In this document: positions 4,033 to 22,309 of the stretch, piece by piece
Position numbering within the stretch: the stretch's first letter is position 1
Layout of the letters: the number at the start of each line of letters is the position of its first letter
The notes under the pieces: model-generated
Seen by the model: the letters and a program-made list of their open reading frames with translations, nothing else
Databases searched by the model: none
Told to the model about the DNA's origin: nothing
Made by a program: the position numbers and the translations under genes
Source of the DNA: Sinomonas gamaensis
GTDB lineage: Bacteria; Actinomycetota; Actinomycetes; Actinomycetales; Micrococcaceae
NCBI RefSeq assembly: GCF_005876955.1
Contig: NZ_SSCL01000006.1
Coordinates: 124,001-188,000, forward strand
Reading direction: 5' to 3'
Length of the DNA: 64,000 nt

Positions 4033-5412
4033 TTGAAGATTGCCGTGGTCGGGGACACCCTCCTCGACATCGACCTCACGGGCCACGCCGACAGGCTGTG
4101 CCCGGACGCCCCCGCGCCGGTCCTCGAGGTGGACCGCCGGCTTGAGCGGGCCGGGGGGGCCGGCCTCGTCGCGACGCTCCTCGCCGACGACGGGCATGAG
4201 GTGGAGCTCATCACCGCCCTCTCGGACGACGACGCCTCCGCCCGCCTCCGCGCGCTCCTCGGGCCGGTCCGCGTGCACGCCGCAGAGCTCGGCGGCCCCA
4301 CGCCGGTCAAGATGCGCCTCACCGCGAGCGGCCAGCGGATCGCGCGCGTAGACGAGGGCTGCGCCATGCCGCCCTTCCCCGTAGTCGAGCCAGGGCTCCT
4401 GGCCGCGCTCGAATCGGCGGACGCCATCGTTGTCGCTGATTACGGCCGGCGCTTCACGAGCGTCGCGACCGTCCGCGCGGCCCTCGAGAGGGCTGCCAAG
4501 CGGGTGCCGGTCGTGTGGGACCCCCACCCCCGCGGCACCCGGCCGACCGCGGGGGCGGCCGCAGTGACCCCGAATCTTTCCGAGCTGCTCACGTTCTCCG
4601 GCCGCGAGGTCGACGAGCCCGGAGCCGTGGCCGTCGCGGGAGATCGGCTCCGCCAGCGCTGGGGTGCCCAGGCCGTCGTCGTCACCCTCGGCGAACGCGG
4701 CGCTCTCGTGTGCGGCCCCGACGGGGACACCCATGTTGCCGTGCCGTCCGCTGGGCTCCGGATCGAGGACCCCTGCGGCGCCGGCGATCGCTTTGCGTCC
4801 TCGCTCGCCGTCGCGCTCGCGCAGGGCGAACCGCTGCGCTCGGCGACCGAGGCCGCCGTCGCGACCTCTGCGGCGTTCCTGGCAGCGGGCGGGGTCTCGG
4901 CGCTGCGTGTGGGCGGCGGGGCTGGCTTCGGGACTGCCGCCGACGCGGCCAGCTCCGACTCGCCGGCTGTCGCACTCGCCCGTCGGATCCGCGCGACGGG
5001 CGGGACAGTGGTCGCAGCCGGGGGATGCTTCGACCTGCTCCACGCCGGTCACCTGCACCTCCTCGAGGCGGCGCGGGCCCTCGGCGATTGCCTCATTGTG
5101 TGCCTCAACTCCGATGACTCCATCCGACGCCTCAAAGGGCCGCAGCGTCCCGTCATGAACGAGCACGACCGCGCTGAGCTGCTCATGGGCCTCAGCTGCG
5201 TGGACGCCGTGGAGATCTTCACCGAGGACACACCGGAGGAAGTGCTCAAGGCGCTGCGGCCCCACGTGTGGGTCAAGGGCGCAGACTACCGGCCCGACGA
5301 GCTCCCCGAGACCAAGCACTTGCGGTCCTGGGGCGGCGAAGTGGTCACCGTGCCGCTGCAGCCCGGGCGCTCGACGACGGGACTCGCCGCGGCGATAGCA
5401 AGCCTGGGCTGA
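4033..5412 (+). CDS. hldE: HldE-type bifunctional heptose-7-phosphate kinase / heptose-1-phosphate nucleotidyltransferase, copy 1
   Basis: TTG start at 4033, two bases after the gmhA stop, with GGGGGAGGA just upstream; 459 residues, close to E. coli HldE. Residues 1 to about 310 are a PfkB/ribokinase-type domain (VVGDTLLDIDL at the start, GAGDRF at 249-254 with the catalytic Asp). Residues about 325-459 are a nucleotidyltransferase with HAGH at 337-340, VCLNSDDSIRRLKGPQRPV and the ending STTGL. The usual GG-A-x-N motif of the kinase substrate site reads GGAGLVA at 41-47, with the Asn missing, unlike copy 2 at 7622. Kinase activity of this copy is therefore less certain. Known role of the family: phosphorylation at C1 and nucleotidyl transfer to heptose. 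Confidence 0.85.
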   Translation: MKIAVVGDTLLDIDLTGHADRLCPDAPAPVLEVDRRLERAGGAGLVATLLADDGHEVELITALSDDDASARLRALLGPVRVHAAELGGPTPVKMRLTASGQRIARVDEGCAMPPFPVVEPGLLAALESADAIVVADYGRRFTSVATVRAALERAAKRVPVVWDPHPRGTRPTAGAAAVTPNLSELLTFSGREVDEPGAVAVAGDRLRQRWGAQAVVVTLGERGALVCGPDGDTHVAVPSAGLRIEDPCGAGDRFASSLAVALAQGEPLRSATEAAVATSAAFLAAGGVSALRVGGGAGFGTAADAASSDSPAVALARRIRATGGTVVAAGGCFDLLHAGHLHLLEAARALGDCLIVCLNSDDSIRRLKGPQRPVMNEHDRAELLMGLSCVDAVEIFTEDTPEEVLKALRPHVWVKGADYRPDELPETKHLRSWGGEVVTVPLQPGRSTTGLAAAIASLG

Positions 5413-5481
5413 CAGAACCACGCTTGGGCAGAGAGAACCAGACAGCCCACAAACCACCAGAAACAACGGGAGGACTACCGA

Positions 5482-6231
5482 ATGACGCAGAGCATCGACA
5501 CGCGAGAGAACGTCGAGCAGAGGCTCGGACAGGACGCGAGCCACCCCCTCAAAGGGGCCCGAGTCCTGGTGACCGGAGGGGCTTCCGGTCTCGGCGCTGC
5601 CGTCGTCGAGGCCCTGACCGCTGAGGGCGCGCTGCCGATCGTCCTGGACCGCCAGTCCGTCGAGGCCCCGGCTCGGGGCTGGGTCGTGGACCTCTCGGAG
5701 CGCGAGGCGGCGGAGGCCGCCATCGCCCAGGCCGCAGAGGAGGCGGGCGGGATCGACGCGATCGTGTGCGCGGCGGGCATCGACCGCTGCGGCGAGCTCG
5801 ACGAGGTCCCCGCCGAGGAATGGGAGAAGGTCATCGCGGTGAACCTCATCGGCACCGCGGCCGTGGTGCGCGCGGCGCTCCCGCACCTCCTGCGGAGCCA
5901 CGGCCGAGTGGTGACGGTCGCCTCGACGCTGGGCCTCCGCGGCGCTGGCGGGGCCACCGCCTACTGCGCCTCCAAGTTCGGCGTCATCGGCTTCAGCCGG
6001 GCGCTGGCCGCTGAGCTCAAGGGGCGCGTCGGCGTCACAACCCTCATCCCGGGCGGGATGGACACCGCCTTCTTCGACGACCGCCCCGAGCAGTACAAGC
6101 CGCACGACCGCACGAATCTCAACCGGCCCTCCGACACCGCGCGCTCCGTCATCTTCGCGCTCTCCCAGCCGCGCGGCTGCGAGGTCCGCGAGCTGCTCGT
6201 GATGGGCTCGATGGAGGACTCCTGGCCGTAA
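5482..6231 (+). CDS. Short-chain dehydrogenase/reductase
   Basis: ATG at 5482 follows GGGAGGACTACCGA, a strong ribosome binding site; 249 residues, typical of classical SDRs. The cofactor motif TGGASGLGAAVVEAL lies at about residues 31-45, the NAG-type motif reads VCAAGIDRCGEL, and the active site is YCASKFGVIGFSRALAAEL (YxxxK). It continues the heptose cluster direction with a 69-base gap. It is not an HldD-type (extended SDR) epimerase, so it does not fill that missing step; it could oxidise or reduce a sugar intermediate. Substrate unknown. A long perfect hairpin follows the stop. Confidence 0.82.
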   Translation: MTQSIDTRENVEQRLGQDASHPLKGARVLVTGGASGLGAAVVEALTAEGALPIVLDRQSVEAPARGWVVDLSEREAAEAAIAQAAEEAGGIDAIVCAAGIDRCGELDEVPAEEWEKVIAVNLIGTAAVVRAALPHLLRSHGRVVTVASTLGLRGAGGATAYCASKFGVIGFSRALAAELKGRVGVTTLIPGGMDTAFFDDRPEQYKPHDRTNLNRPSDTARSVIFALSQPRGCEVRELLVMGSMEDSWP

Positions 6232-17046: not shown

Positions 17047-19329
17047 ATGCGGAAGTCGTCATCTGGGAGTGCCGTGCGACGAGCGCGCGGGGGTGTCATT
17101 TCCGTGCTCGCCGCCGCGGTAGTCGCCGCCGCTCCGACGACGACGGCGATCGCCGCTCCCGCAAGCGTCACCGCTCCCGCCGTGGTCCAGCCGGCGATGG
17201 GGCTGGGCCAGCGGACCGCGCAGATCGGGGTCACCCTGGTGACCGTCAAGACGACCGATCAGCCGAACGCGACGTACGATGTGACGGGCCTTCAGAACAA
17301 CCTCCAGTCGGCGAACAGCTATTGGCAGACTGTCTCCGCCAATCACATTTCGCTCGCCTTGGACCGCACGGTGGACGGGATGTCGATCAACCTGTCCTCG
17401 ACTGCAGATTTCTCGTCGATCGTGAATGCGGTCGCGACGAACCTGAAGTGGGTCGACCAGGCCAACAAGGTGCTGATGGTCGTCATCCCGAATGCGAACG
17501 TCTCGGTGAGCGGCTTTTCTGGGGCGCTGGGGGTTACTTGGATGCTGGGCAGCGAGAACGGGCGGATCGTTCTGGCTCAGCCGTCCAATTTCACCGGTCC
17601 CGTGATGACGCACGAACTCGGCCACGTCCAAGGCCTCGGCCACGCCAACACCCTCCAATGCACGGACGGGGCGATGGATTCCCAAATCGTGGGGAGCGGA
17701 TTCGCCGACGGCGCGTGCTCGTCCCGCGAATACGGCGACAACAACAGCATCATGGGCATTTCCCAGTGGAATCAGCCCTATCTCGACGCGTATCAGTTCG
17801 ACTACGGCGGATACGGCAACCTGAACGAGATCCGCAATGTGGGCGCCGCGGGAGGGGCCGCGACGTACACGCTCTCTCCCTGGGCGGGCAGCGGAGCCAG
17901 CCGCGCGGTGAAATTCACCGATCCCTCGACTGGCGAGGTCTATTACCTCCAGCTCAAGTCCCCGGTCGGCTATGACGCCCCGACAGCCGTCAACGGCAAT
18001 CTGGGAGTCCAGATCATCAAGAGCGACATCAATGTGTCGGAGTCGCTTCTGATCCCGCCGAGCACTGTCCCCTATTCGGGCTATTACTCATCGAATCTCT
18101 CCTGGCAGGCAGGCCAGACGTTTACGACCGATGGCGGCACCCAGATCAAGGTCAATTCCGTCTCGTCGTCCTCTGCGAGTGTGACGGTGACCGCTATTTC
18201 AGCGGTGATCGGCCCGCAGATGGACTCGAAGGCCCAGCAGTGGGGTCTGGGCTCGGCAACGAGCGCGATTACCGCGATCCGCAACGGCGGCTACTACCGG
18301 AATTACCAGGGCGGCGCGGTGATCTGGACCCCGGCGAACGGCGCCATGGTCTCGCGCGGTGCGATCCGCTCCCGCTGGGCGACGCTCGGATTCGAGAACG
18401 GCGTGCTCGGTTATCCGACGACCGACGAGGTCGGAGGCCTTCGCAACGGCGGCGTCTACCAGAACTACGAGGGCGGGGCCATCATCTGGTCGCCGGACAC
18501 GGGGGCGCATTCCTCCACCGGAGCGATCAGGCAGCGCTGGCAGCAGCTCGGCTTCGAGGCCGGCGTCCTCGGCTACCCGACGACCGAGACCATCGGCGGC
18601 CTCCGCAACGGGGGCTCGTACCAGAACTACGAGAACGGGGCGATCATCTCCTCGCCCACAGCCGGGACGCACGAGTCCTACGGGGCGATGCGCGCGCGTT
18701 GGCAGCAGCTCGGCTTTGAGACGGGTGTCCTCGGCTACCCGACCACCAACGTGGTGAGTGGCATCAAGAACGGCGGTTCGTACCAGAACTACGAGGGCGG
18801 GGCGATCGTTTCGTCGCCGACGGCGGGCACGTTCGAATCGTACGGCGCGATCCGGCAGGAGTGGCAGCTGCTCGGCTTCGAAGCAGGGGTGCTGGGCTAC
18901 CCGACGTCGCCCATCGTGGGCGGCATCAAGAACGGCGGCTCGTACCAGAACTACGAGAACGGTGCGATCGTCTCCTCGCCCACCGCAGGCACCCACGAAT
19001 CCTTCGGTCCGATGCGGCAGGTCTGGAAGTCGATGGGCTTCGAGACCGGGGTTCTTGGCTACCCGACCACGGACATCGTCACCGGCATCAAGAACGGCGG
19101 CAGCTACCAGAATTACGAGGGCGGAGCCATCATCTGGTCCTCGGCGACTGGCGCGCATTCCTCCTACGGTCCGATCCGTCAGGCGTGGCAGTCCACGGGT
19201 TTCGAGTCCGGCAGGCTCGGCTACCCGACGAGCGAGGTGTACACGGTCCCGAATGGCACCGCGCAGGATTTCCAGGGCGGCAAGATCGTCTACAGCAATG
19301 GCACGGCCACGATCACTTACTCCTCCTGA
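17047..19329 (+). CDS. Secreted metzincin-like protease with C-terminal LGFP repeats
   Basis: ATG at 17047 after GAGAGGACCTGG; 760 residues. Residues 1-37 are a signal peptide (RR then GVISVLAAAVVAAAPTTTAIAAPA). The middle domain carries HELGHVQGLGH at 189-199 and SIMG (Met at 236), the zinc site and Met-turn of metzincins. The fold between (about 55-390) resembles gametolysin/reprolysin-like enzymes. From about 391 to the end are seven LGFP units of 54 residues, each with NGG-x-YQNYEGGAI and FE-x-GVLGYPT. LGFP repeats are thought to anchor proteins at the actinobacterial envelope. So this looks like an envelope-attached secreted protease. Substrate unknown. Confidence 0.85.
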   Translation: MRKSSSGSAVRRARGGVISVLAAAVVAAAPTTTAIAAPASVTAPAVVQPAMGLGQRTAQIGVTLVTVKTTDQPNATYDVTGLQNNLQSANSYWQTVSANHISLALDRTVDGMSINLSSTADFSSIVNAVATNLKWVDQANKVLMVVIPNANVSVSGFSGALGVTWMLGSENGRIVLAQPSNFTGPVMTHELGHVQGLGHANTLQCTDGAMDSQIVGSGFADGACSSREYGDNNSIMGISQWNQPYLDAYQFDYGGYGNLNEIRNVGAAGGAATYTLSPWAGSGASRAVKFTDPSTGEVYYLQLKSPVGYDAPTAVNGNLGVQIIKSDINVSESLLIPPSTVPYSGYYSSNLSWQAGQTFTTDGGTQIKVNSVSSSSASVTVTAISAVIGPQMDSKAQQWGLGSATSAITAIRNGGYYRNYQGGAVIWTPANGAMVSRGAIRSRWATLGFENGVLGYPTTDEVGGLRNGGVYQNYEGGAIIWSPDTGAHSSTGAIRQRWQQLGFEAGVLGYPTTETIGGLRNGGSYQNYENGAIISSPTAGTHESYGAMRARWQQLGFETGVLGYPTTNVVSGIKNGGSYQNYEGGAIVSSPTAGTFESYGAIRQEWQLLGFEAGVLGYPTSPIVGGIKNGGSYQNYENGAIVSSPTAGTHESFGPMRQVWKSMGFETGVLGYPTTDIVTGIKNGGSYQNYEGGAIIWSSATGAHSSYGPIRQAWQSTGFESGRLGYPTSEVYTVPNGTAQDFQGGKIVYSNGTATITYSS
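18220..19326 (+). repeat. LGFP repeat block, 162-bp period
   Basis: The codons for LGYPT recur at exactly 162-base spacing from about 18406 through 18568, 18730, 18892, 19054 and 19216. Units three to six are nearly identical at the DNA level, which points to recent duplication or gene conversion. Confidence 0.85.
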
Positions 19330-19342
19330 TTCCTCCCTTTCC

Positions 19343-19379
19343 AAACGGGGTCCCGGCCAGAAGGCCGGGGCCCCGTTTT
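19343..19379 (+). terminator. Rho-independent terminator after the LGFP protease
   Basis: Stem built from AAACGGGG-T-CCCGGCC and GGCCGGG-G-CCCCGTTT around an AGAA loop, ending in TTTT. It starts 14 bases after the stop codon. The stretch to 19503 beyond it also holds an inverted repeat TGTTTC-N6-GAAACA (19441-19458), possibly a regulator site for the next gene. Confidence 0.85.
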
Positions 19380-19503
19380 CTTGCTGGCATGACGCTTTCT
19401 TGTTGACTTGACAAATTCCTTCCTCATAGGATCGGCATAATGTTTCTGGTCGGAAACAGCATGGGGGACGGCGCGCGGAGGCTCGCGTCAGGAAGGCTTC
19501 GAC

Positions 19504-20118
19504 TTGACACATAATGTGAAGCGGCGTGCTCGAATGGCCGCACTATGGGGGGTATTTGCTTCGCTGGTCCTGGCCGGGTCCATGAGTCCCGCCGTGGCCG
19601 CATTTACGGCGTCGATTACGAACTCGGCGAACACCGCCGGATCGGGCACCATCTCATTGCGGGAGTCCTCGGGGAGTTCGGTCTGCAGTTCCACGGATGG
19701 CGGCGGCATTTCGACAAACAGCGCCACGTGTTCCACGATCAACAAATACGGCGGCGACCTTGCAATGCTGCCGGGAGACTCCACCTCCACTACGGTGACG
19801 CTCACGAACACGGGATCCGCATTGATCTCAGCGTTCACGCTGACTCCCGGAACCTGCACTCAATCCGCGAATGGCTCAGTGAGCGGGTCGGCGACCGATT
19901 TCTGCTCGAAACTTCAACTGCAGATTGTCTCGGGCGCCACGACGGTCTTTTCGGGAACCGCTGATTCCTTCTCGTCGGCATCAGCGATTTCGCTCGTGCC
20001 GCTGAACGCGGGCGATTCCCAGAGCTACACCTTCACGGTGACCCTGAATTCCACCGCGGACAACACCTATCAGGGCCTTAAAGCGTCACAGCCCATCACT
20101 TGGTCGGCCTCAAGCTGA
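19504..20118 (+). CDS. Secreted TasA/camelysin-like protein with SipW-dependent signal
   Basis: TTG start at 19504 with AGGAAGG seven bases upstream (GTG 19516 is an alternative); 204 residues. The signal region is RRARMAALWGVFASLVLAGSMSPAVA, followed by AAFTASITNSANTAG, the form seen at cleavage sites of SipW-type signal peptidases. The mature part is Ser/Thr/Gly-rich with a beta pattern (STTVTLTNTGSALISAFTL, AGDSQSYTFTVTLNSTADNTYQGL) and three cysteines or more, as in TasA/camelysin-type proteins. The next gene encodes a SipW-type peptidase and overlaps it by 19 bases, so enzyme and substrate are coupled. Fibre formation, as for Bacillus TasA, is only a suggestion. Confidence 0.75.
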   Translation: MTHNVKRRARMAALWGVFASLVLAGSMSPAVAAFTASITNSANTAGSGTISLRESSGSSVCSSTDGGGISTNSATCSTINKYGGDLAMLPGDSTSTTVTLTNTGSALISAFTLTPGTCTQSANGSVSGSATDFCSKLQLQIVSGATTVFSGTADSFSSASAISLVPLNAGDSQSYTFTVTLNSTADNTYQGLKASQPITWSASS

Positions 20119-21779
20119 TTCGTCTGCTGAGCGCCGCCGCGGCCTTTCTTCTCCTGAGCGGCGCTGTCCTGTTCTCCTTTTCGGGCGGCCGGTGGTTCGA
20201 TATCCGCACGCCCTCCATGGGGGAGGCGGCACCCGTCGGATCGCTGGTCCTGACGAGCCGCGTCCAGAGTCTCGACGACGTCCGCGCGGGAGACATCATC
20301 GCGTACGACGACGGCGGCACCGGACGGGTCGTGACCCACCGGGTCGTCGCCGTCGGCTCAGGCTCCGTCACCACGCGGGGCGACATCAACGGAGCAGACG
20401 ACCCGCACCCGGTGGCGCCTGAGCAGATCCTCGGGAAGGCGACCGCCGTCGTCGTCGGCGCCGGGTGGCTCCTGCGCGCCGCTCCGCTCCTCGCCTGCGC
20501 CAGCATTGGGCTCGCGCTCTTGGCCGCCCGCGTGAAGGACTGGCTCCACCGGCGCGCGGTGTGGGTCGTCGGCGAGAGCCTCGCGGCGGCCGTCGTCATC
20601 CTCGTGCTGCGGCCGCTTGTGGGTGTCCAGGAGGTGACCCGGAGCCCGGGTGCGGGCGGCGTCACCATGACCTTCGTGTCCACCGGGTTGCTGCCCGTCC
20701 GCATCTCGGCGGACTCGGGGGCCCACGCCGACCTCGTCGCGGGGCAGCTCGGCACCGTGGAGTCGACGGCGGCGCGTTCCGACGGGCGTTTCTGGTTTGT
20801 GCCTGCGCTCCACCTGGACTGGGGCGGGTGGACCCTGATACTGCTCGCGGCCTCGATGCCCACGCTCCTCCTGCTGTGGTGGGGCCGGGCCTACGCGGCG
20901 AGGGCTGCGGACGCGGGTCCGCGGAGCAACTCCCGCACGCTGCTCGGCGCGCTGGTCGTCGTGCTCGTGGCGGTCGGCACGGGGATGGGGCTCGGTTCCG
21001 GGGCTTCCTTCGCCGCGCAGGTGACGACGACGGCGAACACCGCCGGGGCGCGCACCTTCTTCAGCTGCCGGGCGGCAGAAAGCGGTACGGCCGGGGTGTT
21101 CGTTGCCTACGCGATGGGCACCTCGAGTTCCAGCGAAGCCGACCTCTCCGGCCATGGGTTCACGGGCTCCTACTCCCTCGCTCCCACGACGTCGGCGAGC
21201 AAGGGCTGCCTGCGGGACCAGCCACCGGCGTCGGTTCGCTTCGACGGGCTCACCACCTGCCTCAACACCCCGGACGCCGCCCTCCAGACCAGCCCCAACG
21301 TGTTCACCCTCGAAGCCTGGTTCGCCACCACCTCCGCAGGGAACGGGAAGATCATCGGCTTCTCGAACGCCCACGGCGTGCTCGGCCTGTCCTACGATCG
21401 CCACCTCTACCTCGATCCAGCGGGTCGGATAGTCTTCGGCGTCAATGCCGGCGGCCCGAAGATCGCGGCGTCACCCGCCGGCACGTCGTTCGCCGACGGC
21501 GCCTGGCACCACGCCGTCGCGACGCTCTCGCCCAACGGAATGCGGCTCTATGCCGACGGCGTGCTCGTCGCCTCGAACCCGGCCGTCACTGCGGGGCAGA
21601 GCTACTCCGGCTACTGGCAGATGGGGTGCGGCGCCCTCGGAGGTTGGGTGACGGGATCGGGCTCGCCCTACCTGTTGCCGCCGAGCTTCTTCAACGGCCT
21701 GATCCAGTACGCCGCGGTCTACTCCACGGCACTCACACCGGCGCAGGTGGCTGAGCACTATCTGGCCGGAGCCCCCTGA
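20100..21779 (+). CDS. SipW-type signal peptidase I fused to a C-terminal LamG domain
   Basis: TTG at 20100 inside the end of the preceding gene; 559 residues. Residues 7-28 form a membrane helix. Then come the S26B boxes: TPSMGEAAPVGSLVLT with Ser39, DVRAGDIIAY, VVTHRVVAV with His80 (the ER/SipW type has His instead of Lys) and RGDIN with Asp95. More membrane segments lie near 117-140, 154-170, 232-252 and 276-298. At 299-316 the sequence GSGASFAAQVTTTANTAG mimics the processing site of the neighbouring substrate. Residues about 350-555 are a LamG/concanavalin-like domain (VFTLEAWFATTSAGNGKIIGF, DGAWHHAVATLSPNGMRLYADG). It therefore appears to be a peptidase carrying its own exported substrate domain. 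Confidence 0.8.
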   Translation: MVGLKLIRLLSAAAAFLLLSGAVLFSFSGGRWFDIRTPSMGEAAPVGSLVLTSRVQSLDDVRAGDIIAYDDGGTGRVVTHRVVAVGSGSVTTRGDINGADDPHPVAPEQILGKATAVVVGAGWLLRAAPLLACASIGLALLAARVKDWLHRRAVWVVGESLAAAVVILVLRPLVGVQEVTRSPGAGGVTMTFVSTGLLPVRISADSGAHADLVAGQLGTVESTAARSDGRFWFVPALHLDWGGWTLILLAASMPTLLLLWWGRAYAARAADAGPRSNSRTLLGALVVVLVAVGTGMGLGSGASFAAQVTTTANTAGARTFFSCRAAESGTAGVFVAYAMGTSSSSEADLSGHGFTGSYSLAPTTSASKGCLRDQPPASVRFDGLTTCLNTPDAALQTSPNVFTLEAWFATTSAGNGKIIGFSNAHGVLGLSYDRHLYLDPAGRIVFGVNAGGPKIAASPAGTSFADGAWHHAVATLSPNGMRLYADGVLVASNPAVTAGQSYSGYWQMGCGALGGWVTGSGSPYLLPPSFFNGLIQYAAVYSTALTPAQVAEHYLAGAP

Positions 21780-21789
21780 GTGGGGCGGG

Positions 21790-22077
21790 CTAGTGCGGGA
21801 GCGGGCGCGGCGGCCTACGGCGCCGGGCGGGCGGGCGGACCGCGGGCTCCTCGGTGGCCGTCGCCACCGGCTCCCGTTCGCGCCGTTCCTTTTCGCGCTG
21901 GCGTGCCTGCCGGGCGCGCCGAACAGCAGCGGCAAGGAGAGCGACGAGTGCGTAGGGAATCGACAGCACACCGCCGGTGAGGAAGACGGCCGCGATGACG
22001 ACAAGGCCGACCGCCAGCAACCCAAGAATCAAGGTCCCGAACAGGACCCCCGCGTCGATGATCTCCGACGCTGACAT
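21790..22077 (-). CDS. Small membrane protein of unknown function
   Basis: ATG at 22077 with GGAGG nearby on the minus strand; 95 residues. Residues about 8-30 and 33-52 are hydrophobic, followed by a strongly basic tail (RRARQARQREKERREREP and an Arg/Pro-rich end). It converges with the SipW-LamG gene, 10 bases apart. No family recognised. Confidence 0.6.
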   Translation of the reverse strand: MSASEIIDAGVLFGTLILGLLAVGLVVIAAVFLTGGVLSIPYALVALLAAAVRRARQARQREKERREREPVATATEEPAVRPPARRRRPPRPLPH

Positions 22078-22309
22078 GGCTGCCTCCGTGCTCCCCGCAC
22101 ACGCTCAAATTGTCCGACGACCACCGCGAACGGGGCCGTCGCCTCCATGATGCCCCGGCAGAGGGGCGTTGGGGAGAGGTGACGCGCCGATCGATGTCGC
22201 CTTGTTATCGAGCGCGTGCTCGTTGCGCCGTCACCTTTGCAAGGTGCGGGCGACGGCGGGCGGCTGGAACCCGGCGGACGTGACGGCGCAAACGGGGGGG
22301 GCCGACCGC
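22078..22309. other. Intergenic region with nested inverted repeats
   Basis: No gene is seen. TTGCGCCGTCAC at 22223-22234 pairs with GTGACGGCGCAA at 22280-22291, and CACCTTTGCAAGGTG at 22232-22246 is a short palindrome inside the loop. It lies after the IclR gene and before the small membrane gene, so it may act as a terminator or a small-protein promoter. Confidence 0.4.

Follow-up and report, generated by a model that had tools for sequence, protein, structure and literature searches.

A predicted SipW-type signal peptidase fused to a putative LamG substrate in an actinobacterial gene cassette

Can a signal peptidase carry one of its own substrates in the same chain? The question is raised by one gene in the 64,000-nucleotide stretch of Sinomonas gamaensis DNA analysed here (contig NZ_SSCL01000006.1, positions 124,001 to 188,000; hereafter the window, whose numbering is used throughout). 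The gene, from a soil actinobacterium, encodes a predicted signal peptidase of the S26B type that continues into a LamG domain, a domain of sugar-binding type, and upstream of it lies a gene for a small exported protein, termed SUB. The initial annotation of this DNA had proposed that the peptidase cleaves itself or a sister molecule and frees the LamG domain outside the cell. Comparison with relatives lends support to this proposal: self- or sister-cleavage is the best-supported reading, because unfused LamG proteins have the corresponding segment as an N-terminal signal peptide, with a start codon that overlaps the stop codon of the peptidase gene. We consider it probable that SUB and LamG are the dedicated substrates of the S26B enzyme and that this enzyme cuts the junction A302|S303, in itself or in a sister molecule, and so frees LamG, which might then act in a TapA-like manner on a fibre of SUB. 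The case is made at the level of sequence, from the domains, the fusion in many genomes of several families, the unfused counterparts with the same site, the gene overlap, and the retained catalytic residues and -3/-1 (P3/P1) and P2' letters.

The fused gene and its split relatives

The features of the fused gene are as follows.
20100-21779, + strand: fused S26B signal peptidase-LamG gene, 559 amino acids, TTG start uncertain
20184-20471, + strand: S26B catalytic region, residues 29-124 (invariance and SEC11A/C alignment)
20214-20216, 20337-20339, 20382-20384 and 20400-20402, + strand: codons of Ser39, His80, Asp95 and Asp101
20625-20819, + strand: conserved beta-rich outside segment linking helix 3 to helix 4, about residues 176-240 (AlphaFold2 strands)
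20940-20996, + strand: helix 5, residues 281-299, putative former signal-peptide core (hydropathy)
20994-21047, + strand: putative internal processing site, residues 299-316 (site matrix and hidden Markov model; predicted cut A302|S303, 21005/21006)
21066-21776, + strand: LamG (Laminin_G_3) region, residues 323-559 (Pfam, conservation and AlphaFold2)

The reading frame is free of internal stops over its whole length. Provided that the TTG start is correct, the gene overlaps SUB by 19 bases; an alternative CTG start at 20115 would give a CTGA overlap with the SUB stop. Ser39, His80, Asp95 and Asp101 were invariant in all 14 fused proteins and in the 12 rows of an alignment of fused and split sequences (A4). 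A profile of the 14 fused proteins (positions 15-121) matched human SEC11A and SEC11C (E 7.9e-06 and 2e-05, respectively), which belong to a complex of the endoplasmic reticulum (ER), and the Ser, His and GDxN...D boxes of the two sides coincided in the alignment. The S26B boxes read from the window sequence alone (Ser39, His80 and RGDIN with Asp95) were thus borne out. With the window protein, TIGR02228 sigpep_I_arch gave E 2.5e-11 and 43.7 bits, under its curated cut-off of 51.85; the SipW model NF046067 gave E 3.7e-07 and 29.9 bits against a cut-off of 190, which leaves the protein outside the SipW equivalogs; and no Pfam S24/S26 model matched at E 1 or better. By its sequence, the N-terminal part is an ER/SipW-type (S26B) signal peptidase with His in place of Lys, and its activity is predicted.

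The LamG domain likewise stood: PF13385 matched residues 387-551 at E 1.8e-21, with 77.3 bits against a gathering score of 27.6, and Cys323 and Cys370 of this region were invariant in the 14 fused proteins. V193, T195, G196, P199 and G215, in the stretch between helices 3 and 4, were invariant in the 12 rows of A4. A fold search with the model of the fused protein retrieved concanavalin-like lectin folds (sialidases, clostridial toxin lectin domains and arabinanase) with a template modelling (TM) score of about 0.3 by query length, matches from which we draw no conclusion as to function. Matches of the TafC fimbrial model on LamG (E 0.0006-0.034, and 13-18 bits in the cases with a printed score, against a cut-off of 410) were attributed to the shared lectin fold and discarded. 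The ratio of nonsynonymous to synonymous substitution rates (dN/dS) over the entire fused gene was 0.094-0.108 among three close genomes, indicating purifying selection.

Whether the fusion occurs in other genomes, a check named in the initial annotation, was answered by 13 further fused proteins and six of a second type. Full-length fused relatives were found in G008 (56% identity), G032, G081, G124 (44%), G644 (48%) and G580 (38%); G008 is of the same genus as the window, and its fused gene is identical to that of Sinomonas sp. ASV322. Separate S26B and then LamG genes were found in G296, G060, G063, G087, G256 and G041, and the first residues of such split LamG proteins aligned with the window protein from helix 5 onward. 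The surveys of 395 and 396 genomes scored three candidates per genome, so that their fusion counts are lower bounds. A scan of named genomes with an S26B-only profile (12 rows) yielded 177 stretches and 125 relatives, of which the best 80 of 125 were taken; the LamG share is not an unbiased frequency, since the profile was derived from loci chosen for LamG neighbours.

Among 94 S26B rows, the window excluded, 14 were fused, 73 were split, three had LamG upstream or overlapping, and four had no LamG by the rule applied, namely L087 (LamG with extra domains in front), L144 twice (a locus of only 3.6 kb) and L152 (LamG absent within 12.7 kb). Removal of four twice-fetched rows and addition of the window left 91 rows (14 fused, 70 split and seven other). 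The split rows are not independent, as 33 of the 70 come from Curtobacterium, and were reduced to 24 representatives at about 70% identity. Of the fused rows, 13 of 14 have SUB directly before S26B, and of the split rows, 67 of 73 do; the remaining six split loci begin at most 270 bases from their S26B match. Judged from gene order and homology, this is a conserved actinobacterial cassette, SUB-S26B-LamG, whose last two genes are joined in the fused gene. It was found in Micrococcales, Pseudonocardiaceae and Propionibacteriaceae. In a plasmid search, five records matched in part and none covered 80%.

A start codon of LamG overlapped the stop codon of S26B as NTGA in 69 of the 70 split rows (27 ATGA and 42 GTGA; the exception is L154) and in 23 of the 24 representatives (14 ATGA and 9 GTGA), although other in-frame LamG starts lie nearby in many split loci, so that the overlapping codon is a candidate start. 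If the overlapping start is used, translation of S26B and LamG would be coupled. Given this overlap, a small indel at that place would fuse both genes, and the segment before LamG in the fused proteins looks, by alignment, like the signal peptide of a once-separate LamG gene. The S26B tree implied four changes between the fused and split states (three to four in bootstraps, at least one of them forced by the starred branches). The approximately unbiased (AU) test did not reject a tree with all fused proteins in one clade (p 0.13), and the S26B tree joins long branches to one another.

Several loci showed other arrangements. In Propionibacteriaceae, L159 (2293-9511) carries three SUB genes together with a tandem pair of S26B-LamG fusions. 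A Leifsonia plasmid (L165, NZ_CP065038.1 21796-28311) carries an S26B-like gene with a small gene before it, both labelled hypothetical proteins in the annotated record, and then an IS3 transposase where LamG is expected. The split LamG gene of L087 (6354-8753) has extra sequence between its signal region and LamG, and in a Clavibacter locus (L145, 5785-9600) the S26B open reading frame (ORF) continues past its usual end in a changed frame beside a separate LamG gene, a frameshift or a sequence error. The genome of the window has a second S26B gene (G000:C23:7780-8190, L002) of 518 amino acids, with a long extra C-terminal region and other neighbours, and comparable long proteins occur in L078-L080, which come from three more genomes of this genus.

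The putative internal processing site

Hydropathy of the window protein gave five helices (9-27, 124-142, 156-174, 242-260 and 281-299), in line with the further membrane helices proposed earlier. The predicted topology has the N-terminus inside, Lys/Arg-rich loops inside, and the peptidase part and LamG outside. A cytosolic position of residues 299-316 had been named as evidence against self-cleavage; they are predicted to lie outside, and the reading was not refuted. In alignments, helix 5 falls on the signal peptides with which split LamG proteins begin. In six of the 13 fused relatives (L033, L067, L068, L082, L159_7754 and L164), the raw topology output placed the LamG tail inside, and it split the tail in L034. 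This output merely alternates sides, and the wrong-side tails stem from a third helix below the threshold or from an extra helix. The five-helix model was kept for the fused proteins because the place of the third helix in the alignment was hydrophobic in all 14 (mean 1.24-2.41) and followed a loop with three to five Lys/Arg.

The second processing-site-like stretch reported in the initial annotation, GASFAAQVTTTANTAG, is present, with the correction that the quoted letters are residues 301-316 rather than 299-316; the stretch of the same pattern in SUB, AVAAFTASITNSANTAG, was correctly placed at residues 30-46. The inner site has Ser300 at P3, Ala302 at P1 and Phe304 at P2'. With its small P3 and P1, aromatic P2', preceding hydrophobic stretch and outside location, it resembles a SipW-type substrate, and its cleavage is predicted.

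An ungapped site matrix was trained on unfused sites only, 46 after removal of redundancy, taken from the signal regions of SUB and split LamG proteins, and slid along whole proteins. The training sites were anchored by regular expressions demanding an aromatic P2' and small neighbours, whereas the fused proteins were scanned without such a demand. The top place was the junction in all 14 fused proteins, with scores from 9.1 to 41.7. The window junction scored 13.9, whereas the next-best place in that protein reached -7.4, the highest-scoring of 300 shuffled versions 8.9 and the highest-scoring of 77 S26B-only controls 5.5; no control came up to the junction scores. Every one of the 14 fused proteins had Ala, Gly or Ser at P1 and Ser, Thr or Ala at P3, while P2 varied (G, H, R, Q, L, T or N), as did the helix. 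P2' was Phe in 13 of the 14, followed at +2 nearly always by Ala and at +4 by I, V or L. Between the window and G008, whose synonymous sites are well diverged, dN/dS was 1.36 for the loop and helix 5 and 0.30 for the junction.

A second, more distant S26B-LamG fusion type with fewer helices comprised six proteins (L069-L073 and L077), of which L077 passed the TIGR02228 cut-off with 54.1 bits. Their junctions read AHAAF/SANF and were set by hand for the residue-by-position comparison. The site matrix was weak on this type: its best place was the junction in four of the six (L069, L071, L073 and L077), one residue off in L070 and elsewhere in L072, and two (L069 and L077) scored above all controls. 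A SipW-type exported protein is encoded beside L069, L073 and L077, that of L077 touching the TasA model (E 0.0012); the lists of ORFs for L070 and L072 showed none.

The neighbouring protein SUB and the fate of LamG

The features of the SUB gene and its surroundings are as follows.
19403-19432, + strand: promoter-like hexamers TTGACT-18-TAGGAT upstream of SUB (consensus match only)
19504-20118, + strand: SUB, 204-amino-acid exported protein, TasA-like beta-sandwich, candidate fibre subunit (AlphaFold2 and fold match)
19591-19641, + strand: predicted SipW-type cleavage site and N-terminal motif of SUB, residues 30-46 (sequence, conserved in relatives)

The hexamer pair was the only one in 19300-22200, where shuffles gave a mean of 0.2. 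Directly upstream of SUB, 17047-19329 encodes seven LGFP repeats (E 5.4e-96) with weak matches to metallopeptidase models.

The predicted cut of SUB is A32|A33, with Phe34 at P2'. The AlphaFold2 model of SUB (41 rows) was a beta-sandwich with a mean predicted local distance difference test score (pLDDT) of 82. Its top match in the PDB was the TasA fibre 8aur_A (E 2.5e-06, TM 0.50/0.45), a distant one at 13% identity and the only one at E <= 0.001. Ranks 2-4 (E 0.002-0.004) were archaeal bundling pili, a type 1 pilus and a Sulfolobus thread, with glycoside hydrolases and further beta-sandwich proteins lower down. Searched against 177,635 sequences, a profile of 41 SUBs returned four matches in total, two antibodies and two TasA entries (5of1 and 8aur, E 0.24 and 0.29, below significance), and three of the 41 SUBs touched the BsaA model TIGR04090 (best E 0.017). 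The TasA-like fold of SUB, missed in the initial annotation, changes the probable role of a freed LamG domain. In TasA, the first mature residues (28-38) form the donor strand, and TapA, which has a similar N-terminus, nucleates the fibres (PMC9674648, PMC10151520). F34, A36 and I38 of SUB are alternating conserved residues and lie within the first 50 residues of the model, where the block pLDDT is 46-69. The segment F-x-A-x-(I/V)-x-N is common to SUB and LamG, with Thr replacing Asn in the window LamG, and the SUB profile matched N-termini of split LamG proteins (e.g., L104 at 6e-08 and L088 at 6e-06). The LamG part is thus TapA-like in that its N-terminus resembles the donor strand of the fibre subunit and that one site matrix serves both proteins. 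A protein of L160 begins with a SUB-like domain (SUB E 7.7e-10) that is followed by LamG. This protein (4550-5971) and one in L156 (878-2338), with a less clear SipW-type start, are encoded before S26B and look as though LamG had been grafted onto a fibre subunit.

We infer, from sequence, both the cleavage at the junction and the fibres of SUB, and propose the following course. The signal peptide of LamG would have become transmembrane helix 5 of the peptidase. The S26B part would process SUB, and its active site would cut A302|S303, either within its own molecule or in one beside it, freeing LamG outside the cell and leaving helix 5 on the enzyme, unlike an ordinary signal peptide. Less certainly, SUB may polymerise through donor-strand exchange as TasA does, and the new N-terminus of LamG (F-x-A-x-V/I...) may be a donor strand that primes or decorates the SUB fibre as TapA does. 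The fusion, like the overlap, would keep LamG near 1:1 with the peptidase and site the primer where SUB is processed. More tentatively, and in our estimate somewhat against the odds, one polypeptide could be both signal peptidase and initiator of a TasA-like donor-strand fibre, processing SUB and presenting the LamG segment, tethered at first and then self-freed. The fibre would be started or capped beside the active site, with helix 5 and its -3/-1 end kept as a built-in product.

Several observations weigh against cleavage and a role in fibres. The hidden Markov model (HMM) form of the junction test, after which the matrix was built, was weaker, with its best match at the junction in 12 of the 14 fused proteins (not in L068 and L161) and a score above all 77 controls in 11. 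L159_7754 has Leu rather than Phe at P2'. In the G081/G124 pair, the junction had the highest dN/dS of any region (0.51, 23 codons) and the loop and helix 5 had zero; the P3, P1, P2', +2 and +4 letters were nonetheless identical. In the AlphaFold2 model, pLDDT was below 50 at residues 293-317, and the junction was not visible in the active site. Phe at P2' speaks for a SipW-type cut in that TasA, which also has it, is processed by SipW and not by Escherichia coli LepB, whose 143 verified substrates include none with an aromatic P2', but the block is ascribed partly to Trp at P2 (PMC10269814), which the window site does not have. Because this Trp explains part of the block, Phe at P2' is by itself no proof of a dedicated enzyme. 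As to SUB, TasA and camelysin models were silent on the window protein in Pfam (E up to 1) and NCBIfam (E up to 0.1). The N-termini of SUB and LamG were only slightly more alike within genomes (0.491 vs 0.457, 77 loci), a value reached in one of 5000 permutations and confounded by kinship. The cassette is also patchy, the fusion being present in one of 14 other genomes of the genus, and conservation of the motif could reflect a donor-strand role alone or simple inheritance.

This last point leads to the main rival, which we regard as unlikely, that no cut occurs and LamG stays tethered as a membrane-anchored lectin-like or fibre-base domain, its motif being an anchored donor strand or a relic. 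The donor-strand-like F-x-A-x-(I/V/L) is kept as strictly as the cleavage letters, helix 5 could remain as the anchor, and a fusion makes a free substrate unnecessary. Yet -3 and -1, positions relevant to cleavage and irrelevant to a strand starting at P1', are small in all 14 fused proteins while -2 varies; moreover, the catalytic residues are intact, and the same segment is an N-terminal signal peptide in the unfused relatives. Far less probable is a cut by another cellular signal peptidase, with S26B serving SUB only. Small -3/-1 residues would suit any type I enzyme, and the second S26B gene of the genome (G000:C23), with its different neighbours, offers a candidate; against this, an aromatic P2' is disfavoured by P-type LepB (PMC10269814), and LamG is bound to S26B by overlap or fusion in nearly all loci examined. 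An assembly or frameshift artefact or a decaying pseudogene, which a small indel at the stop-start overlap could produce, can be dismissed, as the same fusion occurs in independent assemblies (G008, G032, G081, G124, G644, G580 and named genomes), dN/dS is low in three close genomes and internal stops are absent.

Significance and closest known systems

Among the titles listed by searches of the open-licence literature, none described a fusion of an S26B/SipW signal peptidase with LamG or a secretion-linked fibre-assembly enzyme combining peptidase and initiator, and SipW, signal peptidase and LamG never occurred together in one paper. As far as these searches go, the component parts are of known kinds, and the LamG partner, the overlap cassette and the peptidase-substrate fusion are new. 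A natural protein that combines a signal peptidase with its substrate would allow one to test, for ER-type bacterial enzymes and in a single chain, whether cleavage occurs in cis or in trans, whether the product is retained and which sites are recognised, and the fused and split forms are a natural experiment on the coupling of initiator and peptidase. The results also suggest that the three cassette-bearing groups, Micrococcales, Pseudonocardiaceae and Propionibacteriaceae, have a fibre cassette of SipW/TasA-like kind in which LamG is the partner.

Human SEC11A/C resembles the fused proteins in its aligned Ser, His and Asp boxes and differs in having neither LamG nor an inner substrate. Archaeal bundling pili and Sulfolobus threads ranked 2 and 4 for the SUB fold (E 0.0019 and 0.0036). 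The threads assemble by donor-strand complementation, and processing by signal peptidase I has been proposed for them; the available part of the paper mentions no peptidase fusion (PMC9715654). In the sipW-bsaABCRSD system of Clostridium perfringens, SipW is required for export and polymerisation of the fibre protein, whereas BsaA polymerises without BsaB and BsaC and, in the text available, neither a LamG partner nor a fusion is mentioned (PMC7395162).

The closest system is tapA-sipW-tasA of Bacillus subtilis, a biofilm-fibre operon that encodes a dedicated ER-type peptidase, the major fibre subunit, which is a beta-sandwich, and a minor partner. SipW cuts both substrates, and the minor partner has the N-terminal segment of the major one (PMC10151520, PMC9674648, PMC10269814). 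The fold of SUB is nearest to TasA, and the stop-start overlap also has its counterpart there, between tapA and sipW (PMC10151520). The present cassette differs in that the minor partner is a LamG protein instead of the Ig-like TapA, the order is SUB-S26B-LamG, SUB and S26B fall below the TasA and SipW models, and, in the fused gene, the peptidase and the minor partner are one protein.

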